Both the position numbers and the translations under genes were made by a program. Shown here piece after piece: positions 9,652-53,847 of a stretch of 53,847 nt of DNA. The notes beneath the pieces are model-generated. The model was not told the origin of the DNA. It saw nothing but the letters and a program-made list of their open reading frames with translations, and searched no databases. The first letter of the stretch is position 1; every line of letters starts with the position of its first letter. The stretch comes from Spirochaetota bacterium (GTDB lineage: Bacteria; Spirochaetota; UBA4802; JAFGDQ01), in contig JAXHTS010000063.1 in NCBI GenBank assembly GCA_034190085.1, forward strand, positions 1 to 53,847, in the 5' to 3' direction.

Positions 9652-11151
9652 TTATTCAATGTAGAACCAATTAGTCGAATTAGAAGCGTCATGCTCCACC
9701 CTTCCATCCCTGCCGATGGGTTCCTCACGAGTCATCTGTTCAATCATTCCTTCTTCTGGTTTTACCCTTGCCAGAAATCTGTTATCCTCCTTATCCCTGC
9801 ACACAACAATTGAGTAATCGATCTGGCTATATCTATTATATACTATAGTGTAGGACTCTATTGTGCCTTTCCCTGTTGCGCTTGTCACAACATTAACCCT
9901 GGGATATTCTTTGACTTTGTGAGGGATTTCCAGCGGCTTCCATGGAGTCTTTCCTGGACTTGCGCTATAGATGCCAACTGAATGTTTACTGATGAACCAA
10001 CTCAAGGCCTGAACCATACCATAGGAAGCAGGATTAGCGCGCAATAAGCTCACAATATGACAAATAGCATGCAAAGAATAATTGTTACCCGGCCCCCCGA
10101 AAAAGGACATCCCTCCTGTAACAGTAAGGGATCGGGGATCATTATATGAGATATTCAGCATCTTCCTAGCTATACGTGGAGCGCATGGGAAACAACTATA
10201 TAGATCTAGATACTCTATTTCATCCAATGAAATAGAGAGTTGATTCAGGGCCATGTTCACAGCATCGGCTACTGAAGGGCTAGCCCATAATGCTGGCCTC
10301 TCTGAGACCAACCAAACGTCTTCCGCATTTCCACATCCCCGAAGGAATATCACTTTACCTTTGGGGATGCCCATTGCCTCTGCTCTCGCAAGATTAGTCA
10401 TTATCAATGCAGCGGCCTGATTCACCGTCATATTAGAACACATTGACTTGGTGTATGGGAAGACAACCATCCTGTTTTTATCCGTTACAGTAGCTATTTC
10501 ATCTTCTGTTTTAGATTCTTGAAACCAAGCATAGGGATTGCGGGAGGCTATCTGCGAAAATTGTGAGCAAAATGATGCAATTTCTCTTGAGTGATCAAAA
10601 ATGGATTTTCCATTATGTGCTCGCAGGGCATTTTCGAATATAGAATATGATAGTAAAGGAGACATCAATCCGTAAAATATCTCCAAATCAGAAACAGGTT
10701 TTCTGACATCACCAATATATAGTGATCCTGCAGCTTTGTCATCCTCTACAAAAAAAGATGAAGCGCTATCCCCCGTCTGTATTTTTTCATGAGAATAGAA
10801 TGCCTCTGCTCCACAGATCAACACCAATTCAGACTTTCCTGAAAAAATCCTTTCCGCTGCTCTATTAACAAACCATTGAGGCGCACAGGCTCCTATCCAA
10901 CTATATCCGGTGTCACTTGGTTGTATTCCTAAAAGCTCTGATAATTCTTGCGCCGGTTTACTCATTACCTTGGATATACAATTAACTATATATAGAGTAT
11001 CGACCTTTCTTAGATTGTCTAGCCTAGCATCCTCAGCAGCTTTTCGGCACACTTCCTCCATCATCTTTATTGGATCTAGTTGAATCTGTGTCTTCTCCCG
11101 ATGGACCAGTTGCCCAATACCTACAAGCACGGGTATCCTGTTTTTATCCAT
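9652..11151 (-). CDS. Thiolase-like protein (SCP2-thiolase/TLP1 type)
   Basis: The 499-residue product has a thiolase fold (about 5-400) with an extra C-terminal domain (about 415-499), the layout described for thiolase-like protein type 1. Cys89, in WIGACAPQW, sits where biosynthetic thiolases have their nucleophile, but the surrounding motif is not the usual CSSG. A GGMSFFGGPGNNYSLH segment near 350 corresponds to the His/Asn active-site loop. The CxG motif supplying the second catalytic Cys of classical thiolases is not evident. Expected chemistry is condensation or thiolysis of acyl-CoA, but activity of this subgroup is uncertain. AGGGGA lies just before the ATG. The gene stands alone, with the biotinyl carrier downstream. 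Confidence 0.75.
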   Translation of the reverse strand: MDKNRIPVLVGIGQLVHREKTQIQLDPIKMMEEVCRKAAEDARLDNLRKVDTLYIVNCISKVMSKPAQELSELLGIQPSDTGYSWIGACAPQWFVNRAAERIFSGKSELVLICGAEAFYSHEKIQTGDSASSFFVEDDKAAGSLYIGDVRKPVSDLEIFYGLMSPLLSYSIFENALRAHNGKSIFDHSREIASFCSQFSQIASRNPYAWFQESKTEDEIATVTDKNRMVVFPYTKSMCSNMTVNQAAALIMTNLARAEAMGIPKGKVIFLRGCGNAEDVWLVSERPALWASPSVADAVNMALNQLSISLDEIEYLDLYSCFPCAPRIARKMLNISYNDPRSLTVTGGMSFFGGPGNNYSLHAICHIVSLLRANPASYGMVQALSWFISKHSVGIYSASPGKTPWKPLEIPHKVKEYPRVNVVTSATGKGTIESYTIVYNRYSQIDYSIVVCRDKEDNRFLARVKPEEGMIEQMTREEPIGRDGRVEHDASNSTNWFYIE

Positions 11152-11576
11152 GTTCCCCTATTTTTTATTATATTAGACTTAATGAATTAATAGATCTAAT
11201 CTCTGATCAATTATTAATTAAGGAAAAAATTCCGCTGTCAAGATAAAAATTTAATGAATTTTTGAGCATTTAAGGTAATTAGTCTACAACAGATAAAAGA
11301 GAGTTTCGTCTATCATAAACAAGGTGTAATCATTCCCTCATGTTTTATTACATATTTTGCGCCAATTCTCATATATCCTTATGTATTTTACATGAATGCA
11401 ATTATAATAATTATATAATTTGTAAAACAATATAAACATGTAATCATTTTTTATTTTAAATAATTATAAAAATTAACAAAATGTATATTAATGTTCTTTA
11501 AAATAAAAAAATTGCTATTTTTATTCAAAGAGTGTATTATCTAAACTCAAGATAAATACTAATAGAAGATATTAAC
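11152..11576. other. AT-rich divergent intergenic region
   Basis: These 425 bases separate the divergent thiolase-like and hybrid kinase genes. The region is extremely AT-rich, with several TATAAT-like hexamers, for example near 11410-11420. I see no small gene, tRNA or convincing hairpin. Confidence 0.6.
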
Positions 11577-13475
11577 ATGTGTAATAATAACTTAAAAACC
11601 ATTAATGTCCTACTCATAAAGGGAAACGGTAAAGCGTCCGAAATAATAAAGGATATGCTTATTAAGCAGCAAGATATTCATTTCAATATTGAATACTATA
11701 GCAGTTTCATTTCGGAGACTGAAATAATACTATTAAATAATATTGATGTAGTACTACTTGACCTCTCAATTATCAATATACAAGGGGATATAATAAAAAA
11801 AATAAATGCTCGATTACCGCTTTTACCAATAATAACATTTGGAAATGATGATGTTTACTCTAAAATAAAATCCACACATAATATGATTTCAGATAATTTA
11901 ACTATAGATGATATTCATAGCAGACTAGCAATACATTCAATAAGATATAATATTAAGATTTCTAAGATAAAAAAGGAACTTGAGGAAAGCGATGATCGCT
12001 TCCTTAAACTATCCGATTCGATACAGGACGGAATTATCATTATCAATGATGAAGGGAATATTACATATTGGAATCCAGCAGCTACTAAAATCTTTGGTTA
12101 TACAAAGGAAGAGGTAATCGGAGAAGATCTGCATATCCTACTTGCTCATAATAGGTTTCATAACGATTACATCAAAGGATTTAATGTATTTAAAAATACA
12201 GGGAAGGGCTATGCAATAGCAAAGATACTTGAGTTATCAGCGATTAGAAAAGATCAAACAGAATTCCCAATTGAGTTGTCCGTATCAGCAGTCCTTTTGA
12301 ACGACAGATGGAATGCTATAGGTATCGTAAGGGATATAACTGAACGAAAACGCATAGAGGAATCACTGAAAAATAGTGAAAAACGATTTCGATCGTTGAT
12401 CGAGGACGGAACAGATGTTATTGCCATTGTAAATAAAGATGGATATATTACTTATGAAAGCCCTACAGCTAAGCAGGTTATGGGGTACAATCCAGAAGAT
12501 CTAATAAACACTCATTTTCTGAATCGAATTCATCCGGATGATAAAAGGGATGCTATAAAGGCCTATGAAGAAATATTATTGAATCCTAAGAAACCTATTA
12601 AGATTGAATTTAGATCTAAGCACAAAGATGGATCATGGCGAATAATTGAACTTATCTGTAAAAACCTATTAGATGATCCTGCTGTATCTGGTATTGTTGC
12701 CAATTTTAGAGATATTACGGAAAGAAGACAGATAGAGGCGATAAAAAGTGCTAAAGATGCGGCTGAAAGCGCTAATATGGCAAAGACGAAATTCTTAGCT
12801 AATATAAGCCATGAGCTCAAAACCCCTTTAAATTCAATAATTGGATTCAGCCAATTCCTGAGGATGCAGCAGATAGGTAAGCTAAATGAAACACAACTAG
12901 ATTATGTAAACACTATTCATAATAATGGAAAGCATCTTCTGGAGATTATGAATGACATTCTAGATATTTCAATAATTGAATCCCAAAAAATACAATTGTG
13001 TATTACTCCTTGTGATATTAAATACATTGTATTAAAATCTGTAACATCAATGGAGTCTTTATTGAATGAAAAGGGGGTAAAACTGATGTTAAATATAGAA
13101 CCAAATATTGGAAAAGTGGAAGTTGATGAAACACGATTAAAACAGATTCTATTGAATCTATTATCCAATGCAATTAAGTTTACTGATTCTGGGAAAAATA
13201 TTGGTATTGGAGTCCATAAAATAGAAGATGGCATAAAAATAACTGTATGGGATGAGGGGAAAGGGATATCCAAGGATAACCTCAATATAATATTTGATCC
13301 CTTTGTGCAAATATACACAAAAGAAGAAGGGAAGACTGGAGGAACAGGTTTAGGTTTATCAATAGTAAAGGAACTTGTTGAGCTTCATGAAGGCAGACTG
13401 GATGTTGAGAGCATAGTTGGATCGGGGAGTCGATTCTCTATAATTTTACCTAAAAAAAGGAATATTCATATTTAG
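11577..13475 (+). CDS. Hybrid sensor histidine kinase (REC-PAS-PAS-HisKA-HATPase)
   Basis: The 632-residue protein begins with a receiver-like domain (about 8-125) with Asp62 in VVLLDLS. Two PAS domains follow (about 140-255 and 265-385), both ending in the usual DITERKR/DITERRQ linker. The kinase core is complete: H-box SHELKTPLN with His412, N-box LLSNAIKF (about 525), G1 DEGKGIS and G2 GGTGLGLSI. No membrane helix is visible, so it should sense a cytoplasmic signal. The N-terminal receiver lacks the usual acidic pair after its first strand (LLIKGNG) and may be unphosphorylated. The next gene, 74 bases on, encodes a receiver/ATPase protein that is the obvious candidate partner. The ribosome site is weak. 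Confidence 0.85.
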   Translation: MCNNNLKTINVLLIKGNGKASEIIKDMLIKQQDIHFNIEYYSSFISETEIILLNNIDVVLLDLSIINIQGDIIKKINARLPLLPIITFGNDDVYSKIKSTHNMISDNLTIDDIHSRLAIHSIRYNIKISKIKKELEESDDRFLKLSDSIQDGIIIINDEGNITYWNPAATKIFGYTKEEVIGEDLHILLAHNRFHNDYIKGFNVFKNTGKGYAIAKILELSAIRKDQTEFPIELSVSAVLLNDRWNAIGIVRDITERKRIEESLKNSEKRFRSLIEDGTDVIAIVNKDGYITYESPTAKQVMGYNPEDLINTHFLNRIHPDDKRDAIKAYEEILLNPKKPIKIEFRSKHKDGSWRIIELICKNLLDDPAVSGIVANFRDITERRQIEAIKSAKDAAESANMAKTKFLANISHELKTPLNSIIGFSQFLRMQQIGKLNETQLDYVNTIHNNGKHLLEIMNDILDISIIESQKIQLCITPCDIKYIVLKSVTSMESLLNEKGVKLMLNIEPNIGKVEVDETRLKQILLNLLSNAIKFTDSGKNIGIGVHKIEDGIKITVWDEGKGISKDNLNIIFDPFVQIYTKEEGKTGGTGLGLSIVKELVELHEGRLDVESIVGSGSRFSIILPKKRNIHI

Positions 13476-14802: not shown

Positions 14803-17220
14803 TTAATCCCTCAATAACACGATGGATACACCATCGCCACCCTCGCCATATTCGCCAGGACGGAAATCCCTAACATATGGGGAGAATTTCAGACTACTTC
14901 GAACAGCCTTCTTCAAGGCGCCTGTGCCGTGGCCATGAATCACAATAGCAGCGCTGATTCCATTTCTAATCATTCTGTCAAAATCTTGTTCAATTCGAAA
15001 GAGTGCGTCATTCACCTTCAATCCCCTGAGATCAATTGTATTATAACTTGTTTGAACTGTCTGAGGGATTCTGCTCTTTATTTTTATTATGCCTTCTTTT
15101 TCAATTTTTTTAGCCGCCTTTAATCTTTCCTTATCCCCTTGTCTTGTTTTGGGAATCAAAAGATCATCAAACTTGTATCTTGTCTTGATTGAATTCCCGA
15201 GTAATAATTGGATACTCATCTCTGAAATATCGATAGATTCTATCCTTCCCTCCCTCTCCAAGGGAACAATAAAAACCGAATCCCCTATTTCAACGATTTT
15301 GGGATCAAAGGGGATATAACTATTAGAAAATCTTTTTTTGCTATCCCTCTTAAGCTTGGTTGATATATCATCATCAATTTTTATTATATCCTGTTGAAGC
15401 TTTCCCAATGCCCTAATATCGCTCTTCTGTAGATCGGTTATCCTATTGGCAATCTCATCCCTGTGCTTTCTTAATTCTTCAAGGAATTCAATTCCTCTCT
15501 CACTTCTAATTTCTTCAATTCTATTTTTAACCTTCGATTGAAAATCAATATATCTGTTCTTTTCTCTAAGTAATTGCTCCTTTAACCCTTCTATCCTCTT
15601 CTGTTCCTCATCCATCATCTCTTTATGTTTCTGTATTGATTCTATTAGAGCTTCGGTTGTTATCTCCCTATCATCGATTAGCTCTCTTGATCTAGAGATA
15701 ATCTTTTCAGACATGCCATAATTCCTGGCAATCTCAATGGCAAAGCTGGATCCAGGTATGCCAATCCTTAGATTAAAGGTGGGATTAAGGGTTTCAGCAT
15801 TAAAAGAGACTGATGCATTGCAAAACCTCCCATCCAGTGAAGCCAAATCCTTCAACTCAGAATAATGAGTTGTTATCACCATCTTGGCCTCAGTATCTAT
15901 CATTGACTCAAGAATAGCTTGCGCTAGAGCTGCGCCCTGTCTCGGATTTGTGCCAACAATAATTTCGTCAATTAGCGCTAGAGTGCTCCTATCAGCCATC
16001 TCTATCATTTCATTAATAATTACAATCTGTCCAGAATATGTAGAGAGGGATTGGGATATACTCTGATCGTCCCCAATGTCCGCAAGAATCTTCGAAAAAA
16101 TTCCTATAACAGAATCAGCGCTTGCAGGGATATGTAGGCCATATATCGTGAGGAGCGCGCATAATCCCACTGTCTTGAGTAAAACCGTCTTGCCTCCAGT
16201 GTTTGCGCCGGAGATAATAAGGCAATTATACCCTTTTCCTATTGAAATATCATTGGCAACAATAGTGTCTGGATTCATTAGGTATAGCAAGGGATGCCTT
16301 GCATCATGAAGGCTAATTATAAAGTCATCTGAAATCTCTGGCTCATTCCCCTTTAAGGAGATGCTGAATTTCGATGCCGCCACCAAAAAGTCAAAATGTG
16401 CCAGTTCATTAAGATTATCTATAATTTCACTAGAAAATCTGCTAACCTCTCTTGATAATATTCTCAATATCCTGTTTATCTCAACCTGGAGTTCCATCTG
16501 CAACACAATGAGTTGATTATTTAAACCTGACACAGCATCAGGTTCAATATAATAAGTAGCCCCGCTAGATGATAGGTCATGCACCCTCCCCTTTACTCTT
16601 CCCTTCATGTTGGCTTTTACGAGGAGCACATATCGGTTATTAATGGTAGTATGTATCTTCTCCTGAAAAATTTTATCCATTGAAGAAGAGTAGATGAGAT
16701 TATGGAGTCTCTTTTCAATTTCCTTTTTGGAATTGAATATTTTTTCTTTTAAATCCTTTAACTCCGGGTACTTCGAAGTACTCAGTTCATTATCATCAGT
16801 AATTGATGGTATCAATACCTCACCCAGTCCTTTGAGATCACTAATAACGCTAAATCTTTCTACAATTGGTATAATAACATCCATATGATTATTAATAAAC
16901 CTTCTTATTCTATTTGAGGAAATAATAAAATTTTTTACTAAAGCCAATTCCTCAATAGAGAGTATTCCACCCTTGCTAGCGATATTGATAATTGATTGAA
17001 TATCTGTAATGCCTGTAAAATCAGGGGCACCCTCTTGGATTACTATCTCCTTAATTCCGGTGATATCCCTTAGCTGATTCCTAGCTGCCTCTGCGGTAAG
17101 CGGTTGGAGTGATGTTACTACTTTTACGCCAATAGGGGTTTGACATCTTTGGAATAGTTCCTTTAATATTTCATTCCACTCAAGGATGTTTAAAACTCTT
17201 TCTGATATGTTGCTTCCCAT
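14803..17220 (-). CDS. mutS2: MutS2 family DNA/ribosome-associated ATPase
   Basis: The 805-residue protein has the MutS2 layout without the mismatch-recognition domain of MutS1. There is a core/lever region (about 1-310), an ABC-type ATPase (about 320-520) with Walker A GANTGGKT at 338-345 (Lys344), a Walker B region ALIDEI and a THYSEL switch, a long charged coiled coil (about 520-640), and a C-terminal Smr nuclease domain (about 720-805) with DLRGL and HGHGTG. MutS2 proteins suppress recombination in some bacteria; in Bacillus the protein (RqcU) splits collided ribosomes. Which applies here cannot be told. A second, free Smr-domain gene lies 46 bases upstream on the same strand, so the two are likely co-transcribed. 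Confidence 0.95.
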   Translation of the reverse strand: MGSNISERVLNILEWNEILKELFQRCQTPIGVKVVTSLQPLTAEAARNQLRDITGIKEIVIQEGAPDFTGITDIQSIINIASKGGILSIEELALVKNFIISSNRIRRFINNHMDVIIPIVERFSVISDLKGLGEVLIPSITDDNELSTSKYPELKDLKEKIFNSKKEIEKRLHNLIYSSSMDKIFQEKIHTTINNRYVLLVKANMKGRVKGRVHDLSSSGATYYIEPDAVSGLNNQLIVLQMELQVEINRILRILSREVSRFSSEIIDNLNELAHFDFLVAASKFSISLKGNEPEISDDFIISLHDARHPLLYLMNPDTIVANDISIGKGYNCLIISGANTGGKTVLLKTVGLCALLTIYGLHIPASADSVIGIFSKILADIGDDQSISQSLSTYSGQIVIINEMIEMADRSTLALIDEIIVGTNPRQGAALAQAILESMIDTEAKMVITTHYSELKDLASLDGRFCNASVSFNAETLNPTFNLRIGIPGSSFAIEIARNYGMSEKIISRSRELIDDREITTEALIESIQKHKEMMDEEQKRIEGLKEQLLREKNRYIDFQSKVKNRIEEIRSERGIEFLEELRKHRDEIANRITDLQKSDIRALGKLQQDIIKIDDDISTKLKRDSKKRFSNSYIPFDPKIVEIGDSVFIVPLEREGRIESIDISEMSIQLLLGNSIKTRYKFDDLLIPKTRQGDKERLKAAKKIEKEGIIKIKSRIPQTVQTSYNTIDLRGLKVNDALFRIEQDFDRMIRNGISAAIVIHGHGTGALKKAVRSSLKFSPYVRDFRPGEYGEGGDGVSIVLLRD

Positions 17221-17266
17221 ATATACAGTTGCAGGGTTATGGTAAAAAACATAAGTATTGTTTACG

Positions 17267-17527
17267 CTACCTCAAAAAGGCAATAGTCGCTCCCCAGTTC
17301 CCTGGTTCATCATGAAATGAAATCACATTATCATTTGACTGAAGAATTCTTATGACAACGCCCTTAATTGCAGATTTTCCCTTCCCATGTGCTATTCTGA
17401 TTCTTTTAATATCCTTTGCTAAAGCCATTTGTATAAACTCTAGGAGTATCCCCTTAACATCTTGGGGATGGAAGGGATGAAGATCAAGCTCATCATCAAG
17501 CTCTATTCTAATAACCTCATCTTCCAT
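17267..17527 (-). CDS. Small stand-alone Smr-domain protein
   Basis: The 86-residue product is one Smr domain. It has DLHPFHPQDV near residues 15-24, the HGKGKSAIKG loop near 47-56, and the ending GNWGATIAFLR. Small Smr proteins are predicted nucleic-acid-binding or nicking proteins related to the MutS2 C-terminus. It sits between the glycogen synthase-phosphorylase gene (96 bases upstream) and mutS2 (46 bases downstream), all on the minus strand. No strong ribosome site is visible before the ATG. The domain assignment is firm; the cellular role is unknown. Confidence 0.85.
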   Translation of the reverse strand: MEDEVIRIELDDELDLHPFHPQDVKGILLEFIQMALAKDIKRIRIAHGKGKSAIKGVVIRILQSNDNVISFHDEPGNWGATIAFLR

Positions 17528-17623
17528 ACTGTTAAATTCTTGTCATTATTAATCTTTATAATCGATAAAAAAATGCCGTCTTCTCTATGTGTTGATATGA
17601 TCCCTCCCATCTTTGATACTGCG

Positions 17624-20600
17624 TTAACCCCAATATACGAGATTGAGATCAATAATATCCTCTATATCTTTATTATAGGGAAGGATCCTTATTCCAAAAT
17701 TATATTTACCAGATTTATCTCCTCGGTATTTGCCAATATATTTAATATGATTATTCTTCTCTTCAAAACATTCCATAGTAATGTATTTAATGTCATCACT
17801 ATTAACCCTTCCATAGTCAGAGTAATTAGAATGTCTTATCATTTTATCCTGAAACACAAGCATCTCGGCCTTTATCTCCTCTTTTGTTACCTTGCCCCTA
17901 TTTATTTCCAGATGCACCGTGATCTCATCATTTATTGTAAGATTATCGCTATAGATGCCATCAATAATAACATCTTCAATTTGAATTGTTGAGAACCTGG
18001 CCTTTATAGATTTTTTCCATATAGTTATTTCTCTTGGTACTGCAAAGTCATTATCAATGAATTCAAAATACCTCTTAGCTGCTGGAATATACATTTTTTC
18101 AACATAATCTCTAACCATTCTATGGGTATTACACTCAGTCATTATTGAGGTAATTGAGTTTTTCATCATCCTTACCCAATTCTCAGGTAAACTTTTGTTA
18201 TTGACTGTATAGTAGTCCATAATAATTTTATTCTCTATAATATCATACAAGGAATCACTATCAATAATATCCTGTGTGTCAACATTATTATACTCCTTTC
18301 TATCTCCAATTATCCATCCATTGGAGCCATCATATAACTCGTCCCACCATCCATCCAGTATGCTCGCATTAAGCACACCATTTATTGCAGCTTTCTGACC
18401 ACTAGTGCCGCTCGCCTCAAAAGGTCTTCTTGGATTATTTAACCAAACATCAACGCCGGAAATCATACTGCGGGCAATCTTCATATCATAATTCTCAATA
18501 AAAATAATTTTTCCTAAGAATTCCTCCTTCTTTGAAATATTTACAATTTCTCTTATCAATCCCTGCCCTTCCTTATCTTCCGGATGCGCCTTTCCAGCAA
18601 ATATAAATTGTATAGGATGATCTTCATCAAGTATTAGCCTTTTAATTCTATCAAAATTTTGTAGAAATAATAGAGCCCTCTTATAGGTTGCAAAGCGCCT
18701 TCCAAATCCTATAGTCAAAGGGGATGGATCAAGATTTGAGAGAAACTTATTAAGAAGATGGGGGCTCTCACCAACCCTTTCCCAATTATCTGTTACTTTT
18801 TTCTTAATCAGTTGAAACAACCTTTTCTTTAGAGTCAAATGGGTTTCCCATAAGACATCATCAGGTATTTTAGAAATTACTTCCCATTTCTCTTTTTTTA
18901 AAAGGTCTTCATTTAGATTTAGAGAGGTATATTTCAAAATGAGTTCTTTCATCTCTTTACTGAGCCATGTTGGCACATGCACTCCATTTGTGATGTGAAT
19001 GATAGGCACTTCATCCAGATGATAACCACTCCATATATCTGACCACATCTTTCTGGATATGTGGCCATGGAGACGGCTAACGCCATTCCTCCTGTATGAA
19101 TTTCTTAAGGCGAGAACAGTCATCTCGTATTGATCTGTCTCCGAATTATGCCTGACGCCCATATCACAGATATCCTTAAAGTTGATGCCATTATTCTGTA
19201 TATATTTTTTCAAATAGGTTTCAAATATTGGTATGTCAAATGACTCATTCCCAGCGGCTACAGGCGTGTGAGTAGTAAATACCGTGCTGGATTTAATGAT
19301 CTCTTTAGCAGTTTCAATATTAATATTATTATTTTTTAATAGGTTGATAAGTCTCGCAATTATCAGGAATGCTGAATGGCCCTCATTTATATGGTAAACG
19401 GAAGGATATATCTTTAACTCATTCTCAAGTAATATTACTCCCCCTACACCCAACAGAATTTCCTGCTCAATTCTCCTCTTTACTCCTCCGCCATAAAGGC
19501 TGCTGGTTATTTCCCTATCAGAAACAGAATTCATCGGAATATCTGTATCCATAAAATATATAGAAACCCTTCCGATTTTTGCCTCCCACACTCTGGCGTA
19601 TAGGATTCTTCCTGGCAAATCAACAGACATCAAAAGCTTTTCACCACTATTTTTGTTAATCTCATTCAAGGGCATTCTAAAAAAATCATTATTTTCATAT
19701 TCAGCTATCTGATCTCCGGTCCTTGTAATCTCCTGTTTGAAATAACCCTTCTTATACAATAATCCTACTCCAATTAACGGCAGGTTCATATCAGAAGCGG
19801 ATTTTATATGATCTCCAGACAATATGCCCAGACCTCCGGAATATAAGGGTAGAGATTCATGAAATCCAAACTCCATTGAAAAATATGCAACCGGTCTATC
19901 ATATGAGATGTATTTAGTATTATTAAAAAAGGAATTAGGATGTGAAAGATATTTATTGAATTCACGAATCACCTTCTCATACAACGACATAAATGGCTTA
20001 TCTGAAATGACATCCTTCAGTCTTTCAGGATCAGTTATCTCACAAAGCGCAACAGGATTGTTTTTCAGTCTTTCAAATAGTTCTGGATTGAGCATAGAGA
20101 ACAGCTCCTGTGCATCGGTATTCCATGACCACCATAGATTATAGGCGAGTTCCCTTAGTTTATCTAGTTCATCTGGGATAGTGGATTTTATAGAAAATTG
20201 TCTAAATCTTGGTCGGGTAGAATGAGATTTTATAAAGAAAAGCTCTATTGCCCTAGCGAGCCATTTTTTATCCTTACCTGAAATCCTCTCGTCCCTATTT
20301 TCAATAGCAACATCATATGCCTTCAGGTAATTTTTAAAAAAAATCTGCCATTCTGCCATTAGGGCTATTTCTCTTGCAGACCTCCTAATTGAATTTATTG
20401 TTACTTCATCTTCACTAATAAATGATTCAATATAGTCCTTTAGCTCATTTACAGAATCATTATAATTTAGGCCAAATCTTTTTATTATTTTAACACCGCT
20501 GCCCTTTAATTTATTTGACATTACCCATTTCCCAAATCCAGCGACATCTGAACTAACAGTTGGTATTGAGTAAGCAACGCTCTCCAATGGAGTATATCCC

Positions 20601-33469: not shown

Positions 33470-36400
33470 TATAATGATCCATCATGGACAGATATAACCC
33501 TGGATAGGCCATAAATTGTTGGCTCGTCAAAAAGCGATCTCACCGGCAAATCTATGGCAAAGCTCTCCTTTATCTTGCTCATTACCTGGATCACCTTCAA
33601 TGAATGCCCACCTAAATCAAAAAAATTATCATGTATGCCGATCCCCTTAACACCCAATACCTCTGACCAAATCCCTGCTATCTTCTCCTCCATATCACTA
33701 CGAGGTGGGATATATTCTCCATCAGCTTTGATATCAGGTTCTGGTAAAACACTTCTATCAATCTTACCATTGAGTGTTAATGGCATTTCATCTATCTGTA
33801 CAAAATATGATGGTATCATATAATCAGGCAGGCTCTTGGATAAAAATTTCCTTATTTCAGAGGATCGAATTTCTCTATCTGCAACAAAATATGAACAAAG
33901 AAAAACTTCATCATTATTATCTATCTTAGCTATAACTATATTTTCAGATATATCTATATGTCTCTGTATATGATTCTCTATTTCCCCTAACTCAATCCTA
34001 AATCCACGTATTTGAAATTGATGATCAATCCTGCCACAATATTCCATTTCACCATCGGCAATAATCCTCACAAGATCACCAGACCGATAAAGCCTCTCCC
34101 CAGGCTTGAATGGATCTTCGACAAATCTTTCCTCTGTAAGCTCCTTCCTGTTCAAATATCCTCGCGCAACGCCCTCCCCCCCTACATACAATTCTCCAAT
34201 TACGCCTTTTGGCAATAACCCCTGCTTCTCATCTAATATATATGTAAATAATGTTGGTATGGGTATTCCGATATTACTAACATTTAATTCGATGTCCCTC
34301 TCCTCCATCTCTTTATAGGTGACATGCACCGTTGTCTCCGTTATCCCATACATATTGATTATCTTTGTTTCAGGATAGATATCCTTCCATCCCAATAATT
34401 TAATAGGTTTTAGGGACTCACCCCCAAGAACAACATATCTAATAGATAATTCATGTTCTCGTTGGCCCAATTCTGCATTGATTAAATTATAAAAAGAAGA
34501 GGGGGTTTGATTCAGTACTGTTACCATCTCAGATCCCAATATTTGTAATAATTCCTTTGGATCCTTAGTGACTCCTTTTGGCACCAGTATCAACTTGCCG
34601 CCATAGAGCAGAGCCCCATAAATCTCCCATACTGAAAAATCGAAACAATAAGAATGAAACATCGTCCACACATCGTTACTATCAAAATCGAACGGATTCT
34701 TATCGTTAAACAAAAGCCTTACTACATTTTTATGTTCGATCATCACACCTTTAGGTTTTCCAGTAGTGCCAGATGTATAGATGATATAGGCTAAATCAGA
34801 GGAATTATTAATATTTTCAAGATTCGAATCATCTCCTACAAATACGTCAGCTTTATCCAAATATATCTTTTCTTCTACAAAACCTGCCCTGCTTGCCAGA
34901 CCTTCCGTTGTCAGTACTATCTCTGTTCCACTGTCCTGCAACATGAAGCTGATTCTCTCTTCCGGAAAATCTGGATCTATCGGCAGATATACCCCTCCGG
35001 CTTTAAGGATTGCCATCATTCCGATGATCATCTCAATGGATCGATCAAACATCATCCCCACAATACAATCAGGTTTCACACCCTTTTGTCGTAATAATCT
35101 CGCTAGGCTGTTTGCCCTTCTATTCAATTGGTCATAGGTGATCCGATTCTCTTTTATAACCACTGCTATATTATCTGGAAAATTCTCAGCTTGCTTCTCA
35201 AATAATTCATGAATGGTTGTATTCCTTGGATAATCTATCCCAGTCTTATTATATTCTACTAATAACCGATTTCTTTCTTCCTCGCCTATAATCTCATATT
35301 GGGATATTGGTTTCCCAGGATCTGACACTGCCTCTGATAATATATTACAAAAATAACCTGAAAACCTCCCTATGGTCTCAATATCAAAAAGATCTGTATT
35401 GTATTCAAATTGAGCTTCAAAACGATCATTATACTCAAATATAAATAGACTCAAATCAAACTTGGACGTCCTCCATACCTCATCTATCTCATCATACTCT
35501 TCAAGACTCAAACCATCCACATTCGTAAATAAATATTTATCAGCCTCATTCTGTACTACCAACATCACATTGAATATCGGACTCCTGCTCATGTCCCGAA
35601 CAGGATTAAGAAGATCTATCAAACGATCAAAGGGATAATCCTGATTCGAATACGCGCCTAAACAGACATCCCTTACGCGTAACAACAACTCCTCAAAACT
35701 CGGATCACCGCTCAAATCCACCCGCAGGGCAAGGGTATTTACAAAAAAGCCTATCAAATCCTGTATATCAGGATGATTCCTGCCGGCTATCGGAGAGCCG
35801 ACAATTATGTCATCCTGTTGACACAACCTCATTAAAAAAATATCAAATACCCCAAGCAAGGCCATGAATAACGTAAAATCACCATCCCTGGATATAGACC
35901 TCAGCCCTGAGGGAAGATCATCGCCTATAGTAAACCTATAGATTGCACCATTCTGACCCTGTATTGAGGGCCTAGGGCGGTCTAAAGGAAAATCCAACAC
36001 CGGCAAATCCCCACCCAACATATCCAACCAATACTCCTCTTGTGTCTCCAATTCACCGCTATCCAATAAGGAATTCTGCCAGGCTGAATAATCCCTGTAT
36101 TGTACAGGCAACTCAGGAAGTACAGGCTCCTCGCCCATACTCAAAAAACCATAGCAGAGCGCCAACTCCCTTATCAATAACTGCATGGACCAGCCGTCTG
36201 ATATGATGTGGTGCATCGTAAAGATAAAAAGATGACGGCCATCTCCCAATCTCAATAGGTTGACCCTGAAGAGCGGCAGCTTCGTAAGGTCAAAGGGTCT
36301 AAATGCCTCCTCCAATACAAAATGAGTCAAATCACCCTCACCCAATATATTCACTTCAAACCTAACATCATCAGAGATCACCTGCACCGGATGACCATTG

Positions 36401-39400
36401 AGGCTCGTAAATGTGGTTCTCAGCGTCTCATGTCTATCAACCACAAGATGCATGGCGCGGTTCAGAATCTCTATGTCCAAATCACCCTTTATTATGAAGA
36501 CTGAGGAAATGTTGTAGGCCGAGGAATCAGGTGTCAGTTGATCCAAAAACCAAAGTCTCTTCTGTGCATGGGAAGGCTCATAATACTCCTGCCTGGCCAA
36601 GGGCTCTATTGAGCTATATTTCACTGATCGATAATCACTAACCGCAATGGCTAAACCAGCTATGTTAGGCTCATCAAATATAATCCTCAGGGGGATATCA
36701 ACACCAAACCCCTTCCTTATCCGGGAGATGACCTGGGTCGCCAAAAGAGAGTGGCCGCCAAGATCAAAGAAGTTATCGTATATCCCGATATCGGATACCC
36801 CTAATACTTCCTGCCATATGGATGATATATGCTCCTCCCTCTCATCGCGAGGTGGTATAGGCTCCCTATCCACAGCAGTGCCAATACCATCAATCTCAGG
36901 CAACCTATCCCTGTCTACCTTCCCATTAGGGGTCAAGGGTATCGAATCTAATCTCACAAAACGTGCTGGAATCATGTAATCAGGCAGGCTCTCTTTTACA
37001 AAGGACTTTAGTTCTCCGGATGATATATCATCAACACTCACATAATACCCTATCAGGTATCTCTCCCCCCTGTCATCCTCCCTGTCCATCACAACACTAT
37101 CATGTATACCATCATAAAGGCTGATTACAGAAGCAACCTCCCTAGGTTCTATACGATAACCCCTAATCTTTATCTGATCATCTACCCTACCCAGATACTC
37201 GACATTCCCGTCATGGAGCCATCTGCCAAGGTCGCCTGTGCTATATAACCTCTCTCCCTCAGAAAAAGGACTTGACAAAAAGCTCTTGGATGTAATATCA
37301 TGCTTATTTAGGTAACCCCTCGCAACACCCGGACTGAAGATATGGATCACTCCAGGAACACCAATGGGCACCAGCTTCATATCCTTATCCAGTATGTATA
37401 TTTTGGTGTTTGCTATGGGTTTCCCAATAGGAATATTAATGCAACTAGAATCCAAACTGTCAAACTTGTAGGCTATGCATCCTACTACTGTCTCTGCTGG
37501 GCCATACTCATTATAAATGATGAGACCTGGGTACTTTTTTAGTATCGACCTAGAGACCTTTGCCGAAAGAGCCTCGCCACCAAGGATTAACCTATTCAAA
37601 TTCCCTGATTTTCTGAGATCGTCATCCGTTAAGCGATCAGCGATCTCCAAATGGGCAGGCGTAAGCTTCGCAATATCACTCATCCCGCTCCTAAATACTT
37701 CCTCAATAAGAGAGACAGGATCTGTATCTCCTGGATATATCTCAATGCACTCTCCAGCTACTAAGGGTGCAAATATACTCGTCACAGTCAGGTCAAAGGA
37801 CATGGAGGTGTAGAGGGGAAAGCTGCCATGGTCTTCAATATCATAGTAGTGCAGTGCCCAGATTATATAGTTGACCAGTCCCCTATGCTCTATCTCAATA
37901 CCCTTTGGCTGACCTGTTGATCCAGATGTATAGATCACATAAACGAGATCCCTGCTCGTATTTATCATCTCAAGGCTTGAGCTTGGCATCCTGCTAATCT
38001 CATCCCAACCCCTATCCAAGCAGAGAATCTCACCATTATAACGTGGAAGCCCTTCAAATACCGATGAATGGGTTAATATCAACTTCACATCTGAATCGCT
38101 CAACATATACTCAAGCCTCTGTTCAGGATACTCGATATCCAAGGGTACGTAGGCCCCGCCTGCCTTCAATATCCCAAGTATGCCCACAATCATCCCTATA
38201 GAACGATCCATGAATATGCCTACCCGGCTATCATTTCGTATATCCCGCAACCTCAGATAATGCGCCAGTCTATTGGCATTCATCTCCAAATCCCTATAGG
38301 TAAGATGCTCATCACCTGCCCTAAGCGCAATTCTATCAGGATATCTGGTTGATGTCTTCTCTATCAGTTCGTGAATGCACAGGTCCTCTGGAAACTCAGT
38401 ATATGTATCATTAAACTCGATTAGCAGGCGATTTCTCTCTTCCTCGCCTATAATCTCATATTCAGATATTGGTTTCCCAGGATCTGACACTGCCTCTGAT
38501 AGAATATTCCGGAAATAACCTGAAAACCTCTCTATGGTCTCAATATCAAAAAGATCTGTATTGTATTCAAATTGAGCTTCAAAACGATCATTATACTCAA
38601 ATATAAATAGACTCAAATCAAACTTGGACGTCCTCCATACCTCATCTATCTCATCATACTCTTCAAGACTCAAACCATCCACATTCGTAAATAAATATTT
38701 ATCAGCCTCATTCTGTACTACCAACATCACATTGAATATCGGACTCCTGCTCATGTCCCGAACAGGATTAAGAAGATCTATCAAACGATCAAAGGGATAA
38801 TCCTGATTCGAATACGCGCCTAAACAGACATCCCTTACGCGTAACAACAACTCCTCAAAACTCGGATCACCGCTCAAATCCACCCGCAGGGCAAGGGTAT
38901 TTACAAAAAAGCCTATCAAATCCTGTATATCAGGATGATTCCTGCCGGCTATCGGAGAGCCGACAATTATGTCATCCTGTTGACACAACCTCATTAAAAA
39001 AATATCAAATACCCCAAGCAAGGCCATGAATAACGTAAAATCACCATCCCTGGATATAGACCTCAGCCCTGAGGGAAGATCATCGCCTATAGTAAACCTA
39101 TAGATTGCACCATTCTGACCCTGTATTGAGGGCCTAGGGCGGTCTAAAGGAAAATCCAACACCGGCAAATCCCCACCCAACATATCCAACCAATACTCCT
39201 CTTGTGTCTCCAATTCACCGCTATCCAATAAGGAATTCTGCCAGGCTGAATAATCCCTGTATTGTACAGGCAACTCAGGAAGTACAGGCTCCTCGCCCAT
39301 ACTCAAAAAACCATAGCAGAGCGCCAACTCCCTTATCAATAACTGCATGGACCAGCCGTCTGATATGATGTGGTGCATCGTAAAGATAAAAAGATGACGG

Positions 39401-42400
39401 CCATCTCCCAATCTCAATAGGTTGACCCTGAAGAGCGGCAGCTTCGTAAGGTCAAAGGGTCTAAATGCCTCCTCCAATACAAAATGAGTCAAATCACCCT
39501 CACCCAATATATTCACTTCAAACCTAACATCATCAGAGATCACCTGCACCGGATGACCATTGAGGCTCGTAAATGTGGTTCTCAGCGTCTCATGTCTATC
39601 AACCACAAGATGCATGGCGCGGTTCAGAATCTCTATGTCCAAATCACCCTTTATTATGAAGACTGAGGAAATGTTGTAGGCCGAGGAATCAGGTGTCAGT
39701 TGATCCAAAAACCAAAGTCTCTTCTGTGCATGGGAAGGCTCATAATACTCCTGCCTGGCCAAGGGCTCTATTGAGCTATATTTCACTGATCGATAATCAC
39801 TAACCGCAATGGCTAAACCAGCTATGTTAGGCTCATCAAATATAATCCTCAGGGGGATATCAACACCAAACCCCTTCCTTATCCGGGAGATGACCTGGGT
39901 CGCCAAAAGAGAGTGGCCGCCAAGGTCAAAAAAGTTGTCGTATATCCCGATATCGGATACCCCTAATACTTCCTGCCATATGGATGATATATGCTCCTCC
40001 CTCTCATCGCGAGGTGGTATAGGCTCCCTATCCACAACAGTGCCAATACCATCAATCTCAGGCAACCTATCCCTGTCTACCTTCCCATTGGGGGTCAAGG
40101 GTATCGTATCCAGCACAATAAAACGCGATGGTATCATGTAATTCGGAAGCGTCATTTTGAGAAATTCCCTGAGATCGTTTGTGGAAAGCTCAACCTCAGA
40201 AACGCAGTAAGCGACAAGACACTGATCGCCACCAGCATCATGCCTATCAACCACCACCGCATCACTGATTGAAGAGTGTTCACATAAACGCGTCTCTATC
40301 TCTCCAAGCTCAATGCGATAACCCCTGATCTTAACCTGATAGTCCGATCTACCAAAAAACTCAATTTCACCATTGGGCAGCCAACATGCAAGATCTCCAG
40401 TCCTATAGATCCTCTCGTCAGGAACAAAGGGATTTTCAATAAATCTCTCAGATGTCAGCTCAGGCTTATTCAGATACCCCCTTGCAAGGCCCTCTCCTCC
40501 AATACATAACTCCCCAGCTACCCCTATTGGTTGAGACCTATTATAATCATCTATAATATATACCCGTGTATTGGATATCGGTCTCCCAATATTTATCTCT
40601 TCAGTCTCCGTTAAATCCTTAAGCGTTGACCAGACAGTCGTCTCCGTAGGCCCATATGCATTATATATTCTGCCATCAAATGCATCCTTTAACTCTGTAA
40701 GCAGATTATCAGGGAAGGGTTCTCCGCCCACAATCAACTCACTCAGTCCGCTCATACACTCTGCCATATTTCCATAGCCCTTCAGCAACTTCAACCTTGA
40801 TGGCGTCACCTGCAACATGCTGACACGGTTATCATTTATTAAATTCCTCAACAACTCAGGATCGCTCTGCTCCATCTCATTTGCTATTACAATCCTCAAG
40901 CCCTTAGCCAATGCTAAGAGGGTCTCCAAAACAAATATATCGAAGGAAACTGTGGTTAATGCCAATATTGTCTTATTCGATGAGAAGTCTATTGTTGACG
41001 CCATCCCCGCAATAAAATTAACCACATTCCTATGCTCTATCATCACGCCCTTGGGTTTTCCTGTTGAGCCAGAGGTGTAGATCACATATGCCAGATCACC
41101 ATGGCAAGCGATATTACTCAAATTAGTGCTATTTGCCCCATAGGATCCCTCATCAAATATATCAATGATTTCGCTACTAAAACCACACCCCAAAACCTTG
41201 GATATCAATCCACCCTGAGTCAACATAATCCCTACATCGCTATCCTCAAGCATATATCGCACCCTCTCTTCCGGATATTCAGGATCTATTGGAAGATAGG
41301 CACCGCCAGCCTTCAATATTGCCAGTAGCCCTACTATCATCTCAGTTGATCGATTAACCATTATCCCAACTATACTGTCCGGCCTAACCCCCTTTGACCT
41401 CAACAACCAGGCTAACCTGTTAGCCCTCTCATTTAACTCGCTATAGGTAAGCTGAGTATCCCCAAATATCAAAGCTACATTATCCGGCATATTAGCAATC
41501 TGATCCTCAAAGATCTGATGATAACACAAAGCCTCAGGATATAATGCCTGGGTGTCATTAAACTCAATCAAGAGTTTATTTCTTTCTACATCATTCAAAA
41601 TTTTATATTCAGACAACCTATTAGAGGGATATTTCGTCACATCGAATAAAAGCGTTATGAAGTAATGGGAAAACCTCTCAATTGTAGCTTCATCAAAGAG
41701 GTCTGTGTTGTATTCAAATTGGGCCTCGAATCTGTCATTGAACTCGAATATCAGCAATGTAAGATCAAACTTCGCACTCGTCTGTTCATCTATGATCTCC
41801 TCTATGGTGAGCCCCTCCACGCTTAAGGAGGTGAGGATATCCATCTCATTTTGAAGTATAAACATTACGCTGAATATTGGGCTCCTGCTTGCATCCCGGG
41901 GTGGATTCAGGATATCTATGAAACGATCAAAGGGGTAATCCTGATTCGAATATGCATCTAGGCATGTCTCCCTTACGCGCTGCATAAGTTCCTCAAATTT
42001 GGGATTACCTCCCAGATCGACACGCAAGGCCAAAGTATTTACAAAAAAGCCTATTAAATCGTGAACATCTGAATGATTCCTAGCCGCCACTGGAGAACCA
42101 ACGATGATATCATCCTGATTGCTCAATCTCAACAACAGGATATCGAAAACAGCGAGCAAAACCATGAAGAGTGTTAAATCTCTCTGTTTAGTTAGGTTCC
42201 TTATCCCTATTGCCAGATCAGACCCTATTATAAATCTGTATGTGGATCCATTTTGTGTCAGCATTGAAGGTCTTGCACGATCAGTCGGCAGATCCAACAC
42301 AGGCAAATCCCCTCCCAGCTTCCCTAACCAATATTCCTCCTGCTCCTTTAATTCGCTCATCAATAGCATACTATTCTGCCAAGCGGCATAATCCCTATAT

Positions 42401-50665: not shown

Positions 50666-53600
50666 TTATATTTCTGATGATTTTACAAATCCTGTTGTCA
50701 CACAATATTTAATCAGCCTTTTTAGTAATTCTCTGTCCAGAGAGGGCCATCTAAATCCTACTGAATCTAAGAAATGGCTTGAAATACGATTATCGTATTT
50801 CACCCTAGTCTTAGGTGTAAAGGAAGCTGTAATATAGGGGATAAGCTTTTGAACAACCTCCTCCAACTCCTTGTTCTCTAAGGCATTTTGTATAGCAGTA
50901 GCATAATCTTCTACACTTAGGGACTGAATATTATATCCAAAGGATGATAATTGTTCTCTTAGATTGTTTATGGTAATCAGGTTGGGATTGTACAGGTGAA
51001 AGGTATGACCTGATGTCTCTGGAAGCAACATAAGATTAACTATTGCATCTCTGCAAGAATCAACGGGGGTCATATCCAATTGTCCGTCGCTATCACCTGG
51101 CACAACACCCATCTGAATTATTGCCTTAATTAGTCCATAGAATGCATTGGTATCTATGGAGCGTTGGAACTTCCCGGTTGTGGAGTCTCCCACCAATGCA
51201 CCAATCCTATAAATAGTAGCGTTAAATCCATTGCCCGTCGCATCCCTCACTAAAGACTCAGCCTCGAATTTGCTCCTTCCATAAACATTATTGAGCACCT
51301 GTCCCCTATTATAGTCCAATTCACTGAATACGATTTGAGACATATTGGGGATATAATCCCCTGAAATGCTTAATGTTGATATATGATGGAATCTCTTACA
51401 ATTTCCTATCCTTGCTAGATCAAGCAATCTCTTTGTGCCCATTACATTTATTTTTTCAAAATGAGAATACTCGCCATAGTGCCTGACATCAGCAGCAGAA
51501 TGCACGATTGTGTCCACTTTCTCAAGCAGCATCCACATATCATCAACATCTAAACATATCCCATCAATCTCCAGATCGCCTAGGATTGGTGTTATTCTTG
51601 AACAATCCACCTCAATCAGATTAAAATAAAAATCCATGGTAGATAAAACACGTTGTATAATATGTTCTTTACTCTCTCCACGGATGAGACAATAGACATG
51701 CGCATTGGTTTTATTCAAGAGTTCATAGAGGAGATGGGCACCAAGATAACCGGTCACTCCGGTAAGGAGTACTGCCTTAAGATTTTCCTTTTGCCCTGAG
51801 ATTGGTATGATCCTGTTTTTTTCAATTTCTATAGTAGTATCATCCTCAGTCATAGAAATATCAGACTCCTTTCCCTCAGTTTCCATTCGTTCACGGGCTT
51901 TCTGTGCAAGATCCGCTATTGTCTGATAATCGAAAAAATCCTGGATCGTAATGGGATAGGACAACTTTAATTTCGCAATCGCCTTCAGGATTAACAATGA
52001 GTGCCCACCCAAATCAAAAAAATTATCATATATGCCTACCTTATCAATACCCAAGACCTCCTGCCAAGCTAAAGCCAATACCCGCTCTAAATCATCTCTG
52101 GGCGCAGCATACACCCTCTCCATCACAGGCCGTAAACCATTTATATCTGGGAGAGCCTTACGGTCAATCTTGCCATTAGGCGTCAACGGCAGACTCTCCA
52201 TAAGCATAAAGCGGGATGGAATCATATAATCAGGCAAATTCTCGCCTATATGTGAACGAAGTGAGCTCGTGGAAAACTCAACATCCGAAACATAAAAGGT
52301 TGCCAAGTACTTATTCCCTTCCGGATCATCCCTGGCTACCACAACCACATCCACTATGCCATCATAAGAGAGTAAGCACGCCTCGATCTCTCCCAACTCT
52401 ACGCGGTTACCCCTGATCTTAACCTGGTTATCAATCCTACCCAAATATTCGATACTTCCATCATAGAGCCACCTGCCAAGATCGCCAGTTCTATATAGCC
52501 TGCCATATCTCGATTGAGCGCTGGGTATAAAGACCTCATCCGTCTTCTCAGGCTTATTTATATACCCCTCTGCAAGACCTAGACCAGCAAGATATATCTC
52601 ACCTGCTATGCCAATAGGCACTGGATTCATATTTCTATCCAGTATATATACCTCCATATTTGCAATGGGTCTGCCAATAGGAATAGCGCTGGATTTATCT
52701 CTGGGACTACATTCATAATAGGTCACGTCAATGGATGCCTCGGTAGGACCATAGAGGTTATGCAACTCGCAATCAATGTATTTAAAGAATACATCCCTAT
52801 GCTCTGCTAAAAGCGCCTCACCTGAACAGAATACCCTCCTCAATGATTTCAAACATGATCTATTCTCATCATCCATTATCCTTAAGAATCCACTCAACAT
52901 AGATGGAACAAAATGGATGGTGGTTATCTCCCTATCGCTTATAACATTAATGATATTAAGCGGATCCTTCTCCATTCCAGGATTCAAGAAGTGAACCCTT
53001 GCTCCAAACATCAATGCCCAAAAAAACTCCCATCCCGATACATCAAATGTATATGGAGTCTTCTGCAGTATACAATCATCCCCTAAAAGGGGATACTCCT
53101 CCTGCATCCAAAATAGACGGTTACATAATCCCTGGTGTATGCATGCAACTCCCTTCGGTATTCCAGTGGAGCCTGATGTGTAGAGGACATAGACAACGTC
53201 TTCAGGGCCGCTTAGATAGGATAAATTAGAAGCTTCCTCTTTTGCAATATCTTCCCATTGACTATCCAAGCAAAGGGACATCACATTTCTATCGGATAAC
53301 CTGTGGACATGCCTCTCCTGTGTAAGCACTATTGGGGATAGGGTATCCTCAAGTATATAATCTACCCTCGAATCAGGATATTCTGTGCCAATTGGCACAT
53401 AGGCCCCGCCTGATTTCATAATACCCAAAAGGGCTATCATCATTTCAAGAGAACGATCAAGCATCATGCCTACCATTGTCTCTCTGCCAACGCCCAGTTT
53501 CCTCAGATAACGAGCCAGTTGATTCGCCTTCCCATTTAATTCATTATACGTAAGAGACTTATCTTCAAATGTCACTGCTATTGAATCAGGAGCTCTGGTT

Positions 53601-53847
53601 GCCTGATCTTCAATCATTTGAAATACGCATCTTTCCAAAGGATATGGCTTAGCAGTATTATTGAAAGAAACCAGTATCCTCTCCCGCTCATCAGAAGTCA
53701 GCATATCAACATCGCTAACACTTAAACCAGGATCAGAAACTAACACCCGCAATATCTGCTCAAGGTGAAAAAGTACCCGGCTTATCATAGCTGAATCAAA
53801 AAGCGACCTGTAATAGTGAAGGCTTATGCTCATGCGAGAGCCAGGGG
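50666..53847 (-). CDS. Partial NRPS ending C-A(Ser)-T-reductase (5' end outside the window)
   Basis: The frame is open to the window edge: the codons before the first visible Met read Pro-Gly-Ser-Arg, matching the PGARMSLNMQYY segment late in condensation domain 2 of the downstream synthetase, so the gene starts beyond 53847. Visible parts are the end of a condensation domain of the D-donor-like subgroup, an adenylation domain (about 52120-53690; TSGSTGIPKG, YRTGDLG), a carrier with its Ser codon at 51998-52000 (GGHSL), and a reductase (50666 to about 51790; GVTGYLGAH, NVYGRSKFE). Specificity residues read D-V-W-H-F-S-L-I-D, one change from the Ser code DVWHLSLIDK. The visible end should release a peptide with a reduced C-terminal Ser. 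The stop lies 79 bases before the next NRPS gene. Confidence 0.95.
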   Translation of the reverse strand, partial: PGSRMSISLHYYRSLFDSAMISRVLFHLEQILRVLVSDPGLSVSDVDMLTSDERERILVSFNNTAKPYPLERCVFQMIEDQATRAPDSIAVTFEDKSLTYNELNGKANQLARYLRKLGVGRETMVGMMLDRSLEMMIALLGIMKSGGAYVPIGTEYPDSRVDYILEDTLSPIVLTQERHVHRLSDRNVMSLCLDSQWEDIAKEEASNLSYLSGPEDVVYVLYTSGSTGIPKGVACIHQGLCNRLFWMQEEYPLLGDDCILQKTPYTFDVSGWEFFWALMFGARVHFLNPGMEKDPLNIINVISDREITTIHFVPSMLSGFLRIMDDENRSCLKSLRRVFCSGEALLAEHRDVFFKYIDCELHNLYGPTEASIDVTYYECSPRDKSSAIPIGRPIANMEVYILDRNMNPVPIGIAGEIYLAGLGLAEGYINKPEKTDEVFIPSAQSRYGRLYRTGDLGRWLYDGSIEYLGRIDNQVKIRGNRVELGEIEACLLSYDGIVDVVVVARDDPEGNKYLATFYVSDVEFSTSSLRSHIGENLPDYMIPSRFMLMESLPLTPNGKIDRKALPDINGLRPVMERVYAAPRDDLERVLALAWQEVLGIDKVGIYDNFFDLGGHSLLILKAIAKLKLSYPITIQDFFDYQTIADLAQKARERMETEGKESDISMTEDDTTIEIEKNRIIPISGQKENLKAVLLTGVTGYLGAHLLYELLNKTNAHVYCLIRGESKEHIIQRVLSTMDFYFNLIEVDCSRITPILGDLEIDGICLDVDDMWMLLEKVDTIVHSAADVRHYGEYSHFEKINVMGTKRLLDLARIGNCKRFHHISTLSISGDYIPNMSQIVFSELDYNRGQVLNNVYGRSKFEAESLVRDATGNGFNATIYRIGALVGDSTTGKFQRSIDTNAFYGLIKAIIQMGVVPGDSDGQLDMTPVDSCRDAIVNLMLLPETSGHTFHLYNPNLITINNLREQLSSFGYNIQSLSVEDYATAIQNALENKELEEVVQKLIPYITASFTPKTRVKYDNRISSHFLDSVGFRWPSLDRELLKRLIKYCVTTGFVKSSEI

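Follow-up and report, generated by a model that had tools for sequence, protein, structure and literature searches.

Near-identical T-C blocks on both sides of one adenylation domain in a spirochaete NRPS gene: probable recombination-born copies with a converted core

Introduction

How do neighbouring modules of one NRPS gene come to share a nearly identical T-C unit while the adenylation (A) domains beside them differ, and does such an arrangement allow a module to be lost in frame? The question is raised by a 53,847-bp stretch of DNA from a Spirochaetota bacterium, referred to here as the window. In the source assembly, a draft that totals 4.27 Mb over 86 contigs, this stretch is contig C63. 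A sequence-only reading of the window had picked out two T-C blocks around the fourth A domain of a large NRPS gene and attributed them to recent duplication or gene conversion.

Results

Layout of the gene and predicted peptide

The blocks lie in an NRPS gene on the minus strand, and the features considered here are as follows.

50666-53845, minus strand: upstream gene, cut off by the end of the contig; domain order A-T-TD, A code DVWHFSLIDK (open reading frame, Pfam, code reading)
29134-50586, minus strand: NRPS gene, 7150 aa, six modules (open reading frame, Pfam domains, core motifs)
A1: code DLTKIGEVGK
A2: code DAQDIGVVDK
40036-41562, minus strand: A3, code DILQIGAVWK, Gly-like (core motifs, code reading)
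38429-40106, minus strand: block copy 1, upstream in the gene; A10 tail, T3, C4 and C4/A4 linker; 99.17% identical to copy 2
36910-38415, minus strand: A4 up to the A10 motif, code DLTKIGEVGK, Asn/Asp group
35267-36944, minus strand: block copy 2; A10 tail, T4, C5 and C5/A5 linker; 99.17% identical to copy 1
35370-36762, minus strand: exact 1393-bp core of copy 2, partner at 38532-39924 (base-by-base alignment)
33718-35253, minus strand: A5, code DFWNVGMVHK, Thr-like (core motifs, code reading)
A6: code DAWFFGNVVK

Core motifs give the module order C1-A1-T1-E1 / C2-A2-T2 / C3-A3-T3 / C4-A4-T4 / C5-A5-T5 / C6-A6-T6-TD, in which the E1 (epimerisation) label rests on position and motif, Pfam calling this domain condensation-type. 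The Pfam domains PF00668, PF00501, PF00550, PF13193 and PF07993 were found in the 7150-aa protein, comprising condensation, AMP-binding and carrier domains, with NAD_binding_4 (reductase) at its C-terminal end. With repeated C-A-T units, intact core motifs and a terminal NAD-binding TD, the gene is a multimodular NRPS with a terminal reductase, and it is apparently intact. Its reading frame remains open across both block copies.

Two reductase-ended NRPS genes thus stand in tandem (50666-53845 and 29134-50586). Contig C72 of the assembly carries an AMP-ligase-like/T start followed by modules with E domains (Gln-type, Asn-type), and together with the tandem genes this content suggests two lipopeptide-aldehyde lines side by side. 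At the right end of the window, positions 53685-53847 and C72:3-121 have 119 bp in common, with one mismatch, and then differ (44 bp on the window side); comparison of C72 with the window end found no exact end overlap of the kind that a fixed k-mer would leave. Genes are cut on both sides, with a C domain lacking its A on one and an A-T-TD lacking its C on the other, and the two may therefore be one gene, with a strain variant or chimeric end whose break falls close to where a C domain ends. A lone condensation domain split across two frames was also seen at G000:C76:8939-10059; it could be the remnant of an NRPS gene in decay, or reflect an erroneous frameshift.

The substrate codes were read at the GrsA positions, with the tenth residue, K, set by convention. 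The choice of Asn over Asp, and of Gln over Glu, follows known codes; for A4, Asn is also helped by the best plasmid match, which is bacillomycin BamB (47.5%). In PMC12283262, DLTKIGEVGK appears in the Asp/Asn section and DAQDLGVVDK is associated with Glu/Gln; the paper also lists DILQLGMIWK for Gly, DFWNIGMVHK for Thr, and DAWFLGNVVK for Leu. The predicted product of the gene would be D-Asn-Gln-Gly-Asn-Thr-Leu, released reductively. Loss of one unit is predicted to leave Gly-Thr in place of Gly-Asn-Thr; the sequence-only reading had the peptide shortened by one Asn, and here the loss of a residue from the Asn/Asp group stands, with Asn likely from the A4 code rather than proven.

The blocks and their borders

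Base-by-base alignment placed the two copies exactly where they had been reported, on the same strand and 3162 bp apart, with 1664 of 1678 bases alike (99.17%) and no gaps. The identity first estimated at about 1.39 kb by eye is a longest exact run of 1393 bp. Directly beyond the blocks, identity drops to about 50-60% per 100 bp. When the NRPS part of the window and the first 17.4 kb of C72 were compared with themselves, the block pair was the sole match of at least 95% longer than 119 bp; leaving aside the 119 bp that the end of the window shares with C72, the remaining matches were 23-130 bp long at 81.5-100% identity, the one at 100% being 23 bp. The blocks do bracket the fourth A domain of the gene, and the A domains between and beside them have diverged as described (A3/A4 45.8%, A4/A5 40.1% aa). 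The step between the copies is 3 x 1054 bp, so any exchange between them keeps the frame, and the proposal that recombination would delete exactly one module in frame is correct by this arithmetic.

Identity switches at the A10 motif on one side; on the other it does so at the final C-domain helix / C-A linker, where the border of the exact core was placed by comparing C-domain ends. In 30-column windows, A4 is 11-73% identical to module 3, and 86-100% identical from the A10 motif onward. The Asub of A4 (A8 to A10) is 63% like that of A1 and 53% like that of A3. The A10-side border is mildly unusual, with the proviso that conversion of T4 may postdate the arrival of A4. Past the core the C-A linker is still alike and holds nine of the 14 differences between the copies.

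All 14 differences lie within the outer 285 bp of the 1678-bp block (103 + 182 bp). For 14 mismatches placed at random in 1678 bp, a mismatch-free run of 1393 bp has a probability of about 2.5e-10, and none arose in 100,000 simulations. Thirteen codons are altered within the block, nine synonymously and four non-synonymously; a further codon straddles the edge, changed at 35266 outside the block, and its inclusion gives 10 + 4. Outside the core, neighbouring mismatches are separated by gaps of at most 99 bp. An older event with later homogenisation of the core, or a core merged by the assembler, would either one fit this pattern; since no mismatch gap outside the core exceeds 99 bp, the signal of two epochs could be assembler merging.

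Recent copying of the T-C unit among old paralogues

C4 and C5 share 99.1% aa identity and 98.7% of fourfold sites, and T3 and T4 are 100% identical by both measures, although the T-domain comparison is small, with 12-15 fourfold sites per pair. All other C, A or T pairs in the gene reach 26.7-66% aa identity with 8-47% of fourfold sites alike, and silent change is near saturation for every domain pair other than T3/T4 and C4/C5. The contrast in fourfold agreement (98.7-100% against 8-47%) indicates that the block copying is recent and that the A domains are old paralogues. Within the gene A4 is closest to A1 (66% aa), and with only 37.9% of fourfold sites alike it was not recently copied from there. 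Paralogous domains in one gene that are far more alike than the rest, silent sites included, are the mark of concerted evolution by internal recombination, and this gene has them. Recent recombination behind the T-C blocks is thus well supported, and the fourfold sites bear out the duplication or gene conversion first proposed from the sequence alone.

Relatives and the frequency of internal repeats

A DNA search with the block against 59 genomes (own included) gave matches in 12, the own genome among them, the other 11 holding short or weak stretches only. At the protein level, matches at E<=1e-100 among 46 genomes of the same order (own included) were confined to the own genome and G035, a member of the same order that matches the block protein at 45-52% aa. 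Nothing near was found in a collection of 84,980 species genomes, where the best 80 of 225 relatives (79 loci) stood at 34-55% aa, and plasmids held no place covering 80% of the block query DNA. A DNA search of ten further genomes behind those loci gave G061 as the nearest, at 65% over 2.6 kb.

In G035, contig C11 (L137, L143) encodes an AMP-ligase-like start, a module with code DAMFLGVTFK and an E domain, Gln-type and Asn-type modules, a module with code DLFNNALTYK, a Gly-type module and TD. The line of AUK176 (G061; L132-L134), split over contigs, has an Asn-type module followed by DLFNNALTYK and TD. In these two distant lines Gln-type and Asn-type modules recur and the end is reductive; the make-up differs. 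Their make-up indicates that line lengths differ between lineages, a comparison that is silent on variation within one population. Internal repeats of at least 300 bp at >=85% identity were found in none of eight stretches from relatives (L107, L132-L134, L136-L138, L143).

As a baseline for such repeats we used 79 named NRPS loci, the flank being limited to 10 kb per locus and the genes often cut, the own-genome loci (L001-L008, L020, L024, L027) being set aside. Internal direct repeats of at least 500 bp at >=90% identity occur in 6 of the 79, so that such repeats are not rare in kind; three loci (L067, L071, L101) have a repeat of at least 1 kb at >=97%, and one (L101) at >=99%. All six repeats include A-domain sequence, and a T-C repeat without an A domain was found in none of the 79, a small sample in which genes are often cut. 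In L101, from a Nitrosomonas MAG, a 3048-bp C-A repeat (10372-13419 and 15102-18148) has 99.97% identity between copies 4730 bp apart and sits in an NRPS region with broken frames.

Discussion

Overall we favour, with a probability of about 0.62, a reading in which the blocks are recombination-born copies of a T-C-linker unit, an older module-sized exchange having been followed by later conversion of the core. In a first step, this exchange, whether it duplicated the unit in tandem or inserted a linker-A4-T-C unit, would have left the Asn-type A domain flanked by the same T-C on either side. Ectopic gene conversion would then have held the 1.39-kb core identical while the edges beside the A domains drifted. 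One T sequence would as a result serve two different A domains, and a nearly unchanged C domain would act twice, first joining Asn to a Gly-ended chain and then Thr to an Asn-ended one. The order of these events is fixed by no relative among those searched. Twin blocks of this kind would be expected to make the gene liable to lose one module in frame.

The repeat-A4-repeat geometry is also what a single recent event would leave, whether unequal crossing-over or a Campbell-type insertion of linker-A4-T-C into an A3-[T-C]-A5 gene, and the confinement of the differences to the two edges would then reflect mosaic joints rather than time. We consider this unlikely: the synonymous character of 9 of the 13 altered codons resembles drift more than foreign patches, and no other pair of modules comes anywhere near the similarity that the edges retain.

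Less probable again is an assembly effect, in which real paralogues about 95-99% identical were merged into an artificial exact core or, in the most drastic version, sequences of two strain variants were spliced together and one of the copies is not real. The fragmentation of the draft into 86 contigs and the chaining of every mismatch to the diverged flanks by short gaps would fit such merging, and the shared 119 bp at the window's right end hints at repeat trouble or a strain mixture. However, the copies are told apart by 14 differences and four amino-acid changes, the 7150-aa frame stays open through both, and the line would make little sense if A4 lacked a T of its own and a C after it. 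The perfect identity of the core may nevertheless be partly of this origin.

It seems improbable that the twin blocks act as lasting recombination handles by which linker-A domains are inserted, swapped or lost in frame, a general-purpose T-C pair accepting several A domains and one population making peptides of five, six or more residues. More improbable still is the active phase-variable switch suggested by the sequence-only reading, with five- and six-module forms coexisting through block recombination and peptides differing by one Asn, for which long exact direct repeats 3162 bp apart, an in-frame outcome and lines of other lengths in related lineages could be cited, but no variant form was seen, and no close relative holding the gene was found in the genomes searched.

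If the core is truly identical, the locus would provide a clean natural test on two points of debate, whether one C domain can serve different donors and acceptors, and whether a T can work behind a different whole A domain joined at A10, a joint that a survey of natural exchanges reports as avoided. The block would also offer engineers a natural pair of module borders.

In the literature on NRPS recombination and repeats we did not find this gene, or twin T-C blocks around one A domain, which is no proof of absence. Related processes have been described. Concerted evolution and gene conversion of NRPS and PKS modules were reported by Medema et al. (2014, PMC4256081), where domains within one line are homogenised by internal recombination after module duplication, as is proposed for this gene; that evidence came mainly from domain trees and family-wide similarity indices, whereas here one sharply bounded T-C unit is concerned and the A domain is left out. 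Calcott et al. (2020, PMC7486941) describe a recombination hotspot between C and A, with a permissive joint at the C-domain end, and nearly identical C domains (pyoverdine synthetase Pa8 and Pa11) paired with different A domains. The present case is similar but extends the near-identity to T, and its two copies occupy adjacent modules within a single gene. For Baunach et al. (2021, PMC8097286), the A10 joint would be a perfect recombination point, yet Asub and T tend to stay together. The Acore exchanges they describe resemble our locus in that peptides can be diversified when modules of the same cluster recombine with one another; here, in contrast, A10 is the point of the switch and Asub4 groups with the Asn-type A domain, so that Asub and the Asub-T junction did not stay with the host module as in an Acore exchange. 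Intragenomic recombination in the wollamide/desotamide NRPS (PMC9205934) likewise combined duplication with subsequent exchange of A-domain sequence, but the duplication there was of a whole gene and here it is within one. Both concerted evolution and the exchange of A domains have thus already been published for NRPS genes, and the twin T-C blocks are one more case of known NRPS evolution.
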